Positions 5,936 to 39,124 of a DNA stretch of 64,000 bases are shown in pieces. How positions within the stretch are numbered: position 1 is the first letter of the stretch; each line of letters starts with the position of its first letter. The stretch is from Mesorhizobium sp. ZC-5 (lineage in GTDB: Bacteria; Pseudomonadota; Alphaproteobacteria; Rhizobiales; Rhizobiaceae). Both the position numbers and the translations under genes were made by a program. The stretch is taken from assembly GCF_025753855.1 (NCBI RefSeq), contig NZ_JAOWPT010000002.1, forward strand, positions 372,001-436,000, in the 5' to 3' direction. Below the pieces are notes generated by a model. The model did no database searches and was not told the origin of the DNA. It saw only the letters and a program-made list of their open reading frames with translations.

Positions 5936-6649
5936 CTAACTGATCCCGTGGGTCTCTTCGATGCGCCGGGCGACGAGTTCCTGCATCTGCCAGAGATGAC
6001 GGTCGTGGATGCCGAGTTCCTCCAGATGGGCGACCGTCGAAAACAGATACTCGGCCATCGAGCCGCGAAAGCCGCAGGCCGTTGCCAGGATATCCGCCAG
6101 CGCGTCGGCTGACAGGCCGTTGATGTAGCGGCCGCTGTTGCGGTTCATGGCGAAGGTCAGCGCCCGGACCGGGCCGCCCGCGGTGGTCGCATTGATCCAG
6201 CGCGGCGGAAAGGCGGTTGGCACCATGCTCATCTCGCGGCGGATGAGCTTGTCCATGTTGGGTTTCAGCGCGCCCGGCGGCAGCCGGTAGACGACACCCC
6301 GGCATTGGCCGCCGCGATCAAGCGCCAGCATCAGCCCCGGCTGCTCGGGATTGCCGCGGAAACGGCGGTCCCAGCCGAGGCAGAACGACCGGTGCCAGCC
6401 ATGCGCCACGGCGACATTGCTGTCGATGAAGTCAAAAGCGGGGTTCCAGATCAGCGACCCGTAGGCGAACACCCAGAGGCCGTCGTTGGGCGCAGCCGCG
6501 ATGATGTCGCCGACGATGGCGTCGTAGTCGGCGTCGGTCGCGGCCCTGAAACCCGGCAGCAAACTGAAACCCGGATCGGCAATCTCGCGCGCCAGCATGG
6601 CGATGTGCCGCTCGCTCAAACGCATTTTTCTGGAACGTGGCCCGTGCAT
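5936..6649 (-). CDS. ChaC-type gamma-glutamylcyclotransferase
   Basis: A 237-residue ChaC-family enzyme that releases 5-oxoproline from glutathione in the cytoplasm. The substrate-binding YGSL loop lies at residues 63-66 within FAYGSLIWNP, and the predicted catalytic glutamate is E139 in RREMS, as in bacterial ChaC proteins. The length is normal. It converges with the upstream dehydrogenase gene and precedes a terminal region shared with the M48 protease gene. Function in glutathione turnover is inferred from the family. Confidence 0.88.
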   Translation of the reverse strand: MHGPRSRKMRLSERHIAMLAREIADPGFSLLPGFRAATDADYDAIVGDIIAAAPNDGLWVFAYGSLIWNPAFDFIDSNVAVAHGWHRSFCLGWDRRFRGNPEQPGLMLALDRGGQCRGVVYRLPPGALKPNMDKLIRREMSMVPTAFPPRWINATTAGGPVRALTFAMNRNSGRYINGLSADALADILATACGFRGSMAEYLFSTVAHLEELGIHDRHLWQMQELVARRIEETHGIS

Positions 6650-34346: not shown

Positions 34347-36365
34347 ATGAGTGCCAACAAAGCTGTCCGCTGGGGCATACTCGGGCCGGGCGGCATCGCC
34401 AAGGCGTTTGCAGGCGGCATCGCGAATTCCAGGACGGGGGTACTCGCCGCCATCGGTACGCGCGATCCGGGCAAGGCCGGGCTCGCCGAGAGCTTTCCGG
34501 GTGCCCGCATCGTTGCCGGCTACGAGGCGCTACTCGCCGACCCGGCGGTCGATGCCATCTACATCGCGACACCGCATCCGTACCATGCGGAATGGGCGAT
34601 CAAGGCGGCCGAGGCAGGCAAACATGTGCTCTGCGAGAAGCCCCTTGCACTGACTGCATTCGAAGCTGCCGCGATGATGCACGCTGCGCGCCAGGCCGGC
34701 ACATTCCTCGGCGAGGCCTTCATGTATCGGCTGCACCCGCAAACCGGCAAGCTGGTCGAACTGGTGAAATCCGGCGCCATCGGCGACGTGCGCATGATCA
34801 AGTCGAGCTTCGGCTTCGCCATGCCAGGCTTCATGCCTGAGCACCGGCTCTATGCCAACGATCTCGCCGGCGGCGGCATTCTCGACGTTGGCGGCTATCC
34901 CGTCTCCATGGCGCGCCTGATTGCGGGAGCGGCGACAGGCGAACCGTTCGCCGAGCCGGACAAGGTTGTGGGCGTCGCGCATCTCGGAAAATCCGGCGTC
35001 GACGAGTGGGCGTCGGCTCTGCTGCATTTCCCCGGCGGCATCGTCGCCGAGGTTTCCTGCTCCATCTCCGTGAACCAGGACAATGTACTGCGCATCTTCG
35101 GCACGAAAGGTCGGATCGAGGTTCCCGACTTCTGGTTCGCCGGCGGCAGCCGCGACGTCGGGCCGGGCAGGATCGACGTGATCCAGCCGGATGGCGGGCG
35201 GGAGACGATCAGCCTCAACGAGACGCGGCATCTCTATTCCTTCGAGGTGGACGCGGCCGGCGAGGCCATCCTCGAAGGGAAGCAGGAGTTTGCCTGGCCG
35301 GGAATGAGCTGGGCCGACAGCCGCGGCACCTTGCGGGTGCTGGACAAGTGGCGTGCCGCCGTCGGGCTCGAATATGCGATCGAAAAGGCCGAGAAGCGCG
35401 TCAACACGATTTCCGGCAGACCGTTGCGTCCCGGTGGCACCGCAATCGGTAAGCGCGCCATTCCGGGGTTGTCCAAGCCGGTGTCGGTCCTTGCCCTCGG
35501 CTTCGAGGATTTCCGCACCTTCTCTTCGGGCGCGATCCTGCTCGACGCTTTTTTCGAGGCCGGCGGCAATTTGTTCGACACGGCTTACATCTATGGCTCG
35601 GGCTATACGGAGAAGCTGCTCGGAGAATGGCTTGCCAGCCGCGGTGTGCGCCAGCAGTCGGTCGTCATCGGCAAGGGCGCGCACTCGCCGCTCTGCTATC
35701 CCGACATGATAGGAAAGCAGCTCGCGCAGTCGCTCGATCGGCTCGGTACCGACCATGTCGATGTCTATTTCATGCATCGCGACAATCCCGACGTGCCGGT
35801 CGGCGAATTCATCGACGCGATGGATCGCGAGGCCAAGGCGGGACGCATTCGCGGGCCGTTCGGCGGCTCGAACTGGACGATGGAACGCATGGACGAGGCG
35901 ATCGCCTATGCCGAACGGACCGGCAAGCAGAAGCCCGGCGCGCTCTCCAACAATTTCTCGCTGGCCGAGATGCTGGAACCCATCTGGGCGGGCTGCGTGA
36001 CCTCATCGACCGACGCATGGAGGGCCTGGCTGACGGCCCGGCAGATGCCCAACTTCGCCTGGTCGAGCCAGGGCCGCGGCTTTTTCACCGACTTGGCGGG
36101 GCGGGACAAGCGGGACAATGAGGAACTGGTGCGGGTCTGGTACTCGGAGAAGAATTTCCGCCGCCGCGACCGCGCGGTGGAACTCGCCGCCAAGCTCGGC
36201 AAGAGCCCGATCCATGTCGCGCTGGCCTACGTTCTTGCACAGCCCTTCCCGTCGATCCCCCTGATCGGGCCACGCACGCTTGCCGAACTCGCGGACAGCC
36301 TCGAGGCGCTGGATATCGAGCTGTCGCCGGATGACCTCGATTGGCTGAGGGATTCGGTGGTCTAG
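34347..36365 (+). CDS. Fusion of Gfo/Idh/MocA dehydrogenase and aldo/keto reductase
   Basis: A 672-residue two-domain enzyme. Residues about 1-335 form a Gfo/Idh/MocA dehydrogenase (WGILGPGGIAKAF, CEKPLAL). Residues about 345-672 form an aldo/keto reductase with the tetrad intact: Asp and Tyr in FDTAYIYG, Lys in VVIGKGAH and His in YFMHRDN. The two halves could perform consecutive or opposing redox steps on the imported sugar. The open frame is continuous and no internal start is needed. A GGAG ribosome-binding site precedes the ATG. It is the last gene of the transporter transcript. Confidence 0.92.
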   Translation: MSANKAVRWGILGPGGIAKAFAGGIANSRTGVLAAIGTRDPGKAGLAESFPGARIVAGYEALLADPAVDAIYIATPHPYHAEWAIKAAEAGKHVLCEKPLALTAFEAAAMMHAARQAGTFLGEAFMYRLHPQTGKLVELVKSGAIGDVRMIKSSFGFAMPGFMPEHRLYANDLAGGGILDVGGYPVSMARLIAGAATGEPFAEPDKVVGVAHLGKSGVDEWASALLHFPGGIVAEVSCSISVNQDNVLRIFGTKGRIEVPDFWFAGGSRDVGPGRIDVIQPDGGRETISLNETRHLYSFEVDAAGEAILEGKQEFAWPGMSWADSRGTLRVLDKWRAAVGLEYAIEKAEKRVNTISGRPLRPGGTAIGKRAIPGLSKPVSVLALGFEDFRTFSSGAILLDAFFEAGGNLFDTAYIYGSGYTEKLLGEWLASRGVRQQSVVIGKGAHSPLCYPDMIGKQLAQSLDRLGTDHVDVYFMHRDNPDVPVGEFIDAMDREAKAGRIRGPFGGSNWTMERMDEAIAYAERTGKQKPGALSNNFSLAEMLEPIWAGCVTSSTDAWRAWLTARQMPNFAWSSQGRGFFTDLAGRDKRDNEELVRVWYSEKNFRRRDRAVELAAKLGKSPIHVALAYVLAQPFPSIPLIGPRTLAELADSLEALDIELSPDDLDWLRDSVV

Positions 36366-36466: not shown

Positions 36467-36485
36467 TGGTGCCTAGAAGAGGATT
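36467..36485 (+). repeat. Left attachment-site-like repeat of the islet
   Basis: TGGTGCCTAGAAGAGGATT copies 17 of 19 bases of the tRNA-Leu 3' end found at 39040-39058. The two differences are both transitions. The copy sits in the same orientation and marks the end of the islet away from the tRNA. Confidence 0.7.
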
Positions 36486-36534: not shown

Positions 36535-36554
36535 ATGTACCCGAGCTTGTACCC
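36535..36554 (+). repeat. Arm-type direct repeat, left copy
   Basis: ATGTACCCGAGCTTGTACCC matches the right copy (38956-38975) at 18 of 20 positions, with the first 12 identical. It contains TGTACCC twice. It lies about 50 bases inside the left attachment repeat, where tyrosine recombinase arm sites are expected. Confidence 0.55.
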
Positions 36555-36584: not shown

Positions 36585-37130
36585 TCAATCGACTAAGGGC
36601 GCCCACCCCAGTTCAGCTTCTATCCTGCGTCGGTAGGCCGTGTCGATCTGGCGTGGTGTGAGGCGAATGTATCGCTCCGCATTCTCACGTTTGTTTCCTA
36701 CTAAGCCTGCTAGATGCGCAAGAACCTCATCGATGGTCGGTATACGGTTTTCTGTGCCGTCAAACTTCGGCGGCAGGGCTGTCCAGATCACCGCGCGAAT
36801 ACCGTGAGCGGCAGCCCATTCTCCCAAATTGGGGATAGCTGCCGGTGACGCATCTCCGGTCTGCCAATGAGCAATGTGATCCCGGATTGGCTTGCCTTCG
36901 CGCTGTCGCAGTGCTTCCTTCGCGACGTTCAAATCTGTGGTATCCATCACGGCCCAAAGTGTTCTTATGGGGACGGCGGCATCAGAAATAACCAGAGTGA
37001 TCCTGTCGTCGTTCGATTGGCGCGCGAACTCAATTCGCATGAACGGACCATCCTCGAACCACAGACGTTGAATTGGCAATTCCCTCGGGTCCCAAACTAA
37101 CGATCCCCAGCCGAGACAAGCAATTGTCAT
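36585..37130 (-). CDS. Gamma-glutamylcyclotransferase-fold protein (islet gene 3)
   Basis: A 181-residue protein. The N-terminus ACLGWGSLVWDPREL fits the substrate loop of the GGCT/ChaC fold (usually YGSN or YGSL), and QREG at 76-79 supplies E78 where human GGCT has its catalytic glutamate in EQEG. These suggest an active cyclotransferase acting on a gamma-glutamyl compound, but sequence alone does not show which. The ATG at 37130 overlaps the stop of the middle gene. It differs clearly from the housekeeping ChaC at 5936-6649. It is the last cargo gene. Confidence 0.65.
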   Translation of the reverse strand: MTIACLGWGSLVWDPRELPIQRLWFEDGPFMRIEFARQSNDDRITLVISDAAVPIRTLWAVMDTTDLNVAKEALRQREGKPIRDHIAHWQTGDASPAAIPNLGEWAAAHGIRAVIWTALPPKFDGTENRIPTIDEVLAHLAGLVGNKRENAERYIRLTPRQIDTAYRRRIEAELGWAPLVD

Positions 37131-37708
37131 CTCCCACCCCCAGATCGCCGGTCACCCTTGACCGATTTACTCGGCCAATTTTCTACTTGCGAGCCTTTGT
37201 CATCCTCACGACTTGTAGAGCCCGCAACCTCTGTCGATCGCATGGCGTCGTTGGTTGACCTGATCGCATCCGAGATGGGGCCTAACTGGGATGGACCGGA
37301 TCGCAACCCCTCCTGCACAATCTTGTCAAGCCGGTCGTGAGGAGTCTCCAGCAAGACTTCCAAAACCCGGCGAAAGGCTTCCGGTCGCTGCTTGAACTGG
37401 CCGGTTCGCGCGCCTCGTATTTCGAGGAAATTTCGTACATCTGCGATCGTCGGCAGAAATCGCTTCGCCTCGTACTGGCCAGCAACGCTAAGGAGCAAAT
37501 CTTTAGTTGCTTTCGGGAGTTTCTGTCGCAACACCATGCCTGTTGGCGTCGGCCGCTCGCTCGGCACACTCTCACGTCGGACATTCTGTCGCTCGGATCG
37601 GTTCATCCCCTCAAGCGCGCGCGTCACCGAGTCGTACCCCCATTCGTCGATGAGAAGCGTTAGCAGCTTGGTCAGAATCTTATTGGAAGACGGCTTCATA
37701 GAACTCAC
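37127..37708 (-). CDS. Unknown protein between ParA and GGCT-like genes (islet gene 2)
   Basis: A 193-residue protein that I do not recognise. The N-terminus is predicted helical (KILTKLLTLLIDEWGYDSVTRALEGM), and the central part has helix-rich segments (KATKDLLLSVAGQYEAKRFLP, DVRNFLEIRG, AFRRVLEVLLETPHDRLDKIVQEGL). The tail is polar and low-complexity, probably disordered. No signal peptide or membrane segment is present. The GTG at 37708 overlaps the parA stop, and its own stop overlaps the GGCT-like start. An ATG at 37699 is a possible start. It may be an adaptor between its neighbours, but that is a guess. Confidence 0.6.
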   Translation of the reverse strand: MSSMKPSSNKILTKLLTLLIDEWGYDSVTRALEGMNRSERQNVRRESVPSERPTPTGMVLRQKLPKATKDLLLSVAGQYEAKRFLPTIADVRNFLEIRGARTGQFKQRPEAFRRVLEVLLETPHDRLDKIVQEGLRSGPSQLGPISDAIRSTNDAMRSTEVAGSTSREDDKGSQVENWPSKSVKGDRRSGGGR

Positions 37709-38553
37709 ATTCCGATCGATTTGAAAAACTCGTTGGCAAAGTAGGAAAACATATCGGAGTTTCCGGAGTAGCTAAAATCACCACGCATCTTCTTGGGGAA
37801 TCCTCGGGAAAATGGTATCTCATGCTTAAACATATGCCAGTTGTTCTTAGCAGCGTCCGCGCGAATATCTGCCATCGCCTGCGTTTTCTCAGGCCCTCCA
37901 TTATTGCCGCCGTGGTAAAAGCCGTTGTTGATAACGATACCCGCGACCTCTATTTTGTGGCCTCGATTTTGCCTCCTGAAGTTGGTCAAGGATTGCGCGA
38001 GCAACGGGAACCCAATTGTCGCAAAATACTCAGGCTTCACGGGTACGAGTAAAAGTCTGCTCGCATGGTAAGCAGCATGAGTAAGTATGGACTCAGTGGG
38101 TGCGCAGTCGATTATGATAAGGTCTTTGTCCTTAAAATTAGCAGCAATGAAGCGAGCTAATGCTTTTGCGTCCGGTCGGATTGCATTTGTCAGGTTATCG
38201 GAGAAATCGAATCGTGCTGGTATTAGGTCCAGAGAGCGATCCTCCCACTCGAAAATCCCTTCTACAGCGTCATCTGGCCCTAGCGGGCTAGGCCCTGACG
38301 AGGACGGGCTCGGTGGCAAATATCCATTGAAAACCTCAACAATGGATGCACGTTGATCGGTGAGAAACTGGCCGTAGCTGTTGTGCATCAATGCTTGGCT
38401 CAGGTTTGCTTGAGGGTCCAAGTCGATGGCGAGAACGTCCAGATTTCTTCTTATGGCTCCATGCCGGGCGAGAAGCGCCGAGATTGTAGATTTTCCAACG
38501 CCACCCTTCATATTGATGACACTGATTACGAGTGGTCCATCTTTCCGAGCCAT
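37705..38553 (-). CDS. ParA-type ATPase (islet gene 1)
   Basis: A 282-residue deviant Walker ATPase. Walker A is KGGVGKS (16-22), Walker A' contains D44 and D46 in IDLDPQANL, and Walker B ends at D149 in LIIIDCAP. It resembles Soj/ParA proteins that form nucleotide-dependent dimers on DNA. There is no N-terminal helix-turn-helix and no parB or parS is nearby, so plasmid partitioning is unlikely. A GGGGGGAG ribosome-binding site precedes the ATG. Its stop overlaps the start of the middle gene. Confidence 0.85.
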   Translation of the reverse strand: MARKDGPLVISVINMKGGVGKSTISALLARHGAIRRNLDVLAIDLDPQANLSQALMHNSYGQFLTDQRASIVEVFNGYLPPSPSSSGPSPLGPDDAVEGIFEWEDRSLDLIPARFDFSDNLTNAIRPDAKALARFIAANFKDKDLIIIDCAPTESILTHAAYHASRLLLVPVKPEYFATIGFPLLAQSLTNFRRQNRGHKIEVAGIVINNGFYHGGNNGGPEKTQAMADIRADAAKNNWHMFKHEIPFSRGFPKKMRGDFSYSGNSDMFSYFANEFFKSIGM

Positions 38554-38955: not shown

Positions 38956-38975
38956 ATGTACCCGAGCCTGAACCC
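38956..38975 (+). repeat. Arm-type direct repeat, right copy
   Basis: ATGTACCCGAGCCTGAACCC repeats 18 of 20 bases of the left copy at 36535-36554. It lies 16 bases upstream of the broken integrase start and about 65 bases inside the tRNA end, consistent with an arm site or integrase operator. Confidence 0.55.
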
Positions 38976-39039
38976 AAGTCGAGGGAGAAAACCGTTTGAG
39001 AACCAACGCTTGCAGCCAAATCAAAGACTTGGGTGCAAA

Positions 39040-39124
39040 TGGTGCCCAGAAGAGGACTCGAACCTCCACTCCTTGCGGAACACGGACCTGAACCGTGCGC
39101 GTCTACCAATTCCGCCATCTGGGC
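39040..39124 (-). tRNA. tRNA-Leu (anticodon CAG)
   Basis: On the minus strand the acceptor arm GCCCAGA pairs with TCTGGGC, followed by A and encoded CCA. The D-loop carries GGAATTGGTAGACGC, the anticodon loop reads TTCAGGT with anticodon CAG, a long class II variable arm follows, and the T-loop is GGTTCGAGTCC. These are the hallmarks of tRNA-Leu. Its 3' end is the attachment site of the islet and remains intact. Confidence 0.95.

Follow-up and report, generated by a model that had tools for sequence, protein, structure and literature searches.

ParA proteins are usually labelled partition proteins. The type of cassette treated here is best known from the Gifsy-1 prophage of S. Typhimurium 14028s where, in the excerpts of PMC9879122 used here, deletion of three genes (STM14_3218, 3219 and 3220) lowered the SOS-dependent activation of RtcR, which regulates RNA repair, 50-fold and raised Gifsy titres 2–4-fold, the signal for RtcR being thought to be cleaved tRNA. 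In the same excerpts the ParA-like protein is noted to stand without a ParB and no function is assignable to the other two genes, with the caveats that plasmid complementation failed and that the insertions in the ParA gene were possibly polar (PMC9879122). The nearest published idea is the prediction, in the excerpted part of the 2013 HEPN survey, that a rare HEPN(MAE_18760)-ParA/Soj pair is a toxin-antitoxin (PMC3710099). Literature searches in an open-licence library found no description of the cassette as a class.

The stretch of DNA analysed here (64,000 nucleotides of Mesorhizobium sp. ZC-5, contig NZ_JAOWPT010000002.1, positions 372,001 to 436,000; hereafter the window) contains a trio of overlapping minus-strand genes that is real and intact, encoding a ParA, a middle protein (MID) and a protein resembling gamma-glutamyl cyclotransferases (GGCT-like) (Table 1). 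A sequence-only reading had described this trio with its GTGA and ATGA junctions, deviant Walker motifs in the ATPase, a GWGSL loop with a candidate catalytic Glu in the third gene, no ParB or parS nearby, and a setting as cargo of a tRNA-linked islet, and on these points it was borne out, for parS as far as the canonical pattern goes. The coordinates were confirmed, with 4-nt overlaps at both ParA/MID (GTGA) and MID/GGCT-like (ATGA); because exactly 4-nt overlaps were counted in 5 of the 27 same-strand neighbour pairs of a crude ORF set of the window, these overlaps are ordinary and indicate an operon-like layout only. The ATPase retains K16, K21, D44, D46 and D149, and with them the deviant Walker A motif (KGGVGK[ST]) of type I ParABS ATPases. 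The ORF downstream of ParA is not ParB-like. Allowing up to 3 mismatches, no match was found anywhere in the window to the parS pattern that is canonical for chromosomes, outside of which other centromere types fall. Plasmid-type centromeres share no common pattern.

Table 1. Features of the cassette and of the islet that houses it, in window coordinates
Feature	Position	Strand	Evidence
ParA-type deviant Walker ATPase, 282 aa; putative switch or hub of the cassette	38553-37705	-	ORF list, Pfam, PHROG, motifs, tree
MID (middle protein), 193 aa, GTG start; putative adaptor/partner	37708-37127	-	ORF list, profile links
GGCT/ChaC-like protein, 181 aa, GWGSL loop, R77-E78	37130-36585	-	ORF list, alignment, weak ChaC profile link
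tRNA-Leu (CAG), islet attachment side	39040-39124	-	tRNA search; synteny with three relatives ends at its 3′ end
att-like repeat, tRNA copy, 17 bp	39040-39056	+	repeat search
att-like repeat, distal copy, 16/17 bp identical	36467-36483	+	repeat search
Right-hand copy (20 bp) of an inner direct repeat, possibly an arm site for the integrase	38956-38975	+	
Left-hand copy of the inner direct repeat, with 90% identity to the right-hand one	36535-36554	+	
Integrase-type N-terminal remnant, DUF6538, 102 aa	38574-38882	-	ORF list, Pfam

The trio is housed in a low-GC islet of 2.6 kb at the 3′ end of tRNA-Leu, the GC content of the islet genes being 0.49–0.57 versus 0.64 for the window. The att-like repeat corresponds to the last 17 bases of the tRNA, and its distal copy is the single other match in the 64 kb with up to 2 mismatches; no chance copies were expected (100 shuffles). 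Between ParA and the tRNA, the remnant carrying DUF6538, a domain found at the N-terminus of integrases, belongs to a longer frame that is stop-interrupted, with the catalytic domain absent before ParA. DNA similarity on the gpmA side in three relatives (G147, G059 and G015) ends at 39038-39039, the 3′ end of the tRNA. Because of the tRNA-end repeats, the drop in GC, the broken integrase remnant and this stop in synteny, the islet looks like a small integrated element no longer able to move itself. A search for the empty att site found the left-flank gene elsewhere in G147 and absent or weakly matched in the other three genomes searched, and no att-like repeats were found around the loci of four relatives. 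A separate ORF of 672 residues at window 34347-36365 appears by eye to join an oxidoreductase to an aldo/keto reductase.

The window ParA matches Pfam AAA_31 (E 5e-25) and CbiA, as well as PHROG 164, annotated as 'ParA-like partition protein' (E 1e-35). Close relatives are rare at high stringency, being detected in 4 of 297 genomes of the order (E 1e-30) and 3 of 385 of the class (E 1e-45), the window's own genome included in both counts, and in 1 of 398 phylum-level draws, this being its own genome. Among viral contigs, where a search with a two-row ParA alignment returned distant ParAs only, a single one among the best 80 candidate loci of a wider search (L181, ParA 38% identical) belongs to the window clade, for which eight loci were found in all (the window, L022, L109, L110, L111, L124, L125 and L181). 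In a maximum-likelihood tree of 48 ParAs, built from a hand-picked row set that has several long branches and for which 27 loci were selected by hand out of the 49 prophage loci with three genes, these eight rows form a clade with support of 99/99, which L182 joins at 100/95, and they fall within a 37-row cassette side (99/95). A separate partition clade (100/98) unites three ParB-partnered ParAs with the genome's own two other ParAs, the partners of the latter two being unchecked. By this tree, the window ParA appears to belong with the ParAs of prophage and defence-island cassettes, apart from the ParB-partnered ParAs. At L125 (6542-8169), the ParA gene ahead of MID seems, by eye, to be extended at its N-terminus by an HTH-like stretch, and a C5 DNA methylase lies nearby.

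All eight clade loci have a MID-like ORF of 156–193 aa directly after ParA, with a 4-nt overlap in five of them (window, L109, L110, L111 and L124) and a gap of 1–3 nt in the other three (L022, L125 and L181). MID itself had no match in Pfam, NCBIfam or PHROG, and next to ParA no recognisable ParB or centromere-binding protein was found. It was matched in 1 of 395 genomes of the family, the window's own, and in one plasmid record, and a search of viral contigs with a MID alignment gave no match. The MID sequences diverge fast, and links between them were examined with hhalign, for which controls with reversed sequences gave 0.1–0.5%. The MID pair of the window and S. meliloti gave 78% (E 2e-5) against five relatives, or 35% (E 7e-5) with another alignment, 63% against the long prophage MIDs, and 95% (E 1e-8) against the relatives and long prophage MIDs together. 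All seven alpha MIDs against the long prophage MIDs gave 97% (E 3e-10), and the long against the short prophage MIDs gave 86% (E 5e-7). Compared directly, the window pair was undetected against the short prophage MIDs (1.4%) and against all prophage MIDs (0.4%), as were the small gamma MID alignments against the alpha sets (0.3% and 0.1%). The putative homology of the window MID to the short prophage MIDs rests on the long prophage MIDs as intermediates, and it is through these long MIDs, too, that the gamma and alpha sets become linked.

The wider cassette family was surveyed via a search of viral contigs with a ParA alignment, of which the best 80 of 336 candidate loci, comprising 61 non-identical ParAs, were considered. 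Among these best 80 loci, 60 of the 61 ParAs are followed by an ORF of 110–200 aa, and 53 of the 61 have a profile-linked MID (49 build the profile, and L181, L199, L223 and L233 match it); at L204, L208, L210, L213, L232, L239 and L257 the second gene is a different one and was not counted as MID, and at L196 there is none. A third ORF of 210–262 aa is found in 49 of the 61 loci, and in 46 of these 49 it belongs to one family, in which R-x3-E and Y-x7-H are conserved (43 members build the profile, which also picks up L190, L198 and L207). In a left-out profile test, the third genes of L182, L184 and L235 showed no detectable relation to that main family; an initial count of 49/49 for conservation of its R and H was discarded because it included these three unsupported members. 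A HEPN identity for the relatives' third gene, assumed from a look at the motifs, was likewise dropped: no HEPN Pfam match was obtained and, by eye, the alignment has no Arg 4–6 residues before the His, as an Rx4-6H HEPN motif would require. The second gene corresponds to PHROG families 6264/12497 and the third to 7540/12265, all of unknown function. In the 20 prophage loci that were read, cassettes often lie beside repressor or integrase genes or after lysis genes, positions typical of accessory prophage genes.

In six other prophage pairs (L204, L210, L213, L232, L239 and L257), a ParA some 350 aa long precedes a protein of 126–138 aa that is unrelated to MID by profile and has an LxLxQLKDxVAxxGM motif, SAP/Rho_N-like by eye; the ParAs of the SAP-like prophage pairs fall near the ParB-partnered clade of the 48-ParA tree. 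On the Plesiomonas plasmid p11184 (L132), the replication gene is directly followed by a ParA-like gene, which is broken, and then by a MID-like and a third-gene-like ORF, both of them intact.

A profile search did not find the R-x3-E/Y-x7-H family among the window ORFs or at the seven other clade loci. Seven of the eight loci of the window clade have no recognised third gene, so that ParA and MID would have to do something by themselves there, a point against the switch reading set out below. The simplest history would be that of an ancestral cassette with a variable third gene, suggested by the distinct kind of third gene at L182, followed by loss of that gene in the window clade and gain of the GGCT-like gene in the window.

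The GGCT-like protein of the window had no match in a Pfam search. R77 and E78 are invariant in 13 of the 13 aligned members of its family, and the glycine loop is nearly so. An hhalign comparison of the family with the genome's two ChaC proteins gave a weak link (31%, E 5e-4; reversed control 1%), the alignment spanning exactly the region of the GWGSL.WDP loop and the RE motif. Those two genuine ChaC genes, over the Pfam cut-off, lie separate from the islet, at window 5966-6478 (minus strand) and at L261. GGCT-like genes were matched in 14 of 395 genomes of the bacterial family (own included, four partial).

The trio had also been taken for one conserved module, an idea that the comparison led us to reject, as the full trio did not turn up at any other locus: the GGCT-like gene is absent from 91 other ParA loci (some near-duplicates and some short contigs among them), and ParA and MID are absent from 15 other GGCT-like loci. 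ParA plus MID is a conserved unit; the trio is not. Judged by the refuting condition that the sequence-only reading had set, half of its idea falls: MID was never seen without the ATPase, but it was seen without the GGCT-like gene everywhere but in the window.

The GGCT-like protein is either the effector of the cassette or a hitch-hiker. In the latter case, ParA-MID would switch as proposed below and the GGCT-like gene would be an independent passenger, placed in the same direction at the islet end, and ParA-MID would act alone, as it seemingly does in the other seven clade loci. We regard this as quite possible, at somewhat less than an even chance. It is consistent with the varied contexts of the 15 loci, with the 20 plasmid records of the GGCT-like family, none of which is the one record with ParA-MID, with the commonness of 4-nt overlaps in the window, and with the company of GGCT-like genes in other islands, where they stand beside HipA (L115 and L119, the copy at L119 lying 16 nt behind HipA but containing a stop) or a Fic-domain gene (L116). 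Other neighbours include an integrase (L004, by eye) and restriction genes (L020). A mere passenger is harder to reconcile with the translational coupling of the GGCT-like gene to MID, and with its location in the very slot that holds a third gene in 49 of the 61 prophage cassettes among the best 80 of 336 loci.

Our best reading, for which we judge the chances to be about even, is that of an ATPase switch (ParA) and an adaptor (MID) with a variable third slot, taken in the window by the GGCT-like protein as a candidate effector. It builds on what was observed of the anatomy and intactness of the genes, the linkage of ParA with MID, the clade to which they belong and the variability of the third slot, and would add to these a switch mechanism, a trigger, and an effector role and chemistry for the GGCT-like protein. 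ATP-bound ParA, held by MID, would monitor the state of the DNA or of infection, which in the Gifsy-1 relative would be the SOS/RecA state. A change in that state would lead to ATP turnover and thereby to release or activation of the third-gene product, which would damage or slow the cell and so limit phage output. In Gifsy-1, the third gene would on this reading be connected with RNA damage and lower phage output. In the window, a GGCT/ChaC-like effector would have a gamma-glutamyl compound as its substrate, most obviously glutathione, and because of the conserved Glu its chemistry, if it is the output, would be that of a gamma-glutamyl cyclotransferase. More speculative, and in our opinion unlikely, is a broader version in which ParA-MID would be a general, effector-agnostic sensor of mobile elements, through which an exchangeable effector in the third slot responds to DNA damage or to the state of a phage; the window lineage would have lost the usual effector and captured a ChaC-like gamma-glutamyl cyclotransferase, whose destruction of glutathione, or of some other gamma-glutamyl compound, would stop the cell.

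If its role were partition, the cassette would be a small module that once served the partition or copy maintenance of a plasmid or integrative element, and MID would be a centromere-binding protein that has escaped recognition. The fold and motifs of ParA would suit such a role, as would the HTH-like extension seen by eye in the L125 ParA and the related set following the replication gene of the Plesiomonas plasmid. However, a ParA of the window clade was found in just 1 of 72,556 plasmid records (E 1e-20), on a 1.4-Mb megaplasmid and beside an integrase, and most relatives reside in integrated prophages or chromosomal islands. With the absence of ParB and of a canonical parS from the window, and the tree setting the window ParA apart from the ParB-partnered ParAs, plasmid partition is disfavoured and we consider it improbable. 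The probable role of the ParA-MID cassettes of phages and mobile islands is that of a stress or anti-virus switch and not of DNA partition.

McdAB-like systems combine an orphan ParA with an adaptor partner. A positioning system of this type, with the GGCT-like protein as localised cargo or as an enzyme, is the least probable of the alternatives and very doubtful, for although orphan ParAs with adaptors are known (they are mentioned in the excerpts of PMC9879122) and MID is basic (net +9) with a low-complexity linker and tail by eye, the patchy spread over islands and prophages and the variable third gene are unlike a housekeeping role.

For the switch that we prefer, a place in defence or stress response, considered plausible by the sequence-only reading, remains so given the relatives in prophages and defence islands and the link to Gifsy-1-type cassettes. 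An E. coli cassette (L131), which 133 of the 5,426 genomes of this species carry, adjoins type I R-M genes with an embedded DarTG. In the L237 and L243 cassettes, the ParA gene measures 840 bp, the second gene 309 bp when read from an in-frame GTG, and the third gene 663 bp, with a repressor gene upstream, and the sizes and setting of STM14_3218, 3219 and 3220, as given in the excerpts of PMC9879122, are the same. L237/L243 match the Gifsy-1 cassette by architecture and gene lengths, not by sequence comparison. A phage-record search with the E. coli third gene gave no match. In PADLOC 2023, no known defence family was matched by the trio; the weak partial matches, to GajA (E 0.04, with MID) and to PDC-M28B (over 39 residues of ParA), were set aside as chance or generic P-loop similarity.

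The trio had been called a combination that could not be named. This can now be narrowed: the cassette is of a kind already known but unexplained, best known from Gifsy-1, the GGCT-like gene comes from a separate gene family, and as third gene it is a new variant, in which an enzyme-like protein occupies the slot of the usual third protein. Across prophages, defence islands and tRNA islets, a clade of ParAs, proteins otherwise labelled for partition, is here connected with a single partner family and with a third gene that varies. This points to a class of stress or anti-phage modules gated by an ATPase, one that is unlisted in PADLOC 2023. The Gifsy-1 genes that control the RNA-repair operon, so far unexplained, would thereby gain a name and a mechanism open to testing.

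Among known systems, the pair closest to the window is that of S. meliloti T073 pSymA (L022, 7929-11379), with aligned identities of 60% for ParA and 31% for MID; it differs in having no GGCT gene and, about 480 nt on, SIR2, HerA and FRG genes. An integrase also lies near this ParA-MID pair. The E. coli cassette, whose second and third genes are of PHROG 12497/12265, shares the gene order, the 4-nt ParA/MID overlap, a long MID (168 aa) and an island setting, whereas its ParA is about 33% identical and its third gene is of the R-x3-E/Y-x7-H family that is absent from the window. The HEPN-ParA/Soj pair likewise joins a ParA/Soj ATPase, proposed as regulator, to a putative effector, but in the excerpted survey it is described without MID, and neither the window genes nor the relatives' third genes have a HEPN match (PMC3710099). 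With the ChaC/gamma-glutamylcyclotransferase fold, the window protein shares a YGSL-like loop (GWGSL.WDP) and a conserved Glu, while this putative member has no Pfam match. STM14_3218-3220 of Gifsy-1 resemble the window trio, as far as the excerpts of PMC9879122 describe them, in a ParA-like first gene without ParB, a small second gene, a third gene and a mobile element as setting, and in the tree the larger clade of cassette ParAs takes in that of the window. The window cassette differs from that of Gifsy-1, in the same excerpts, by its long MID (193 aa), by a GGCT-like third gene instead of a 220-aa protein, and by its location in a 2.6-kb islet instead of a prophage.
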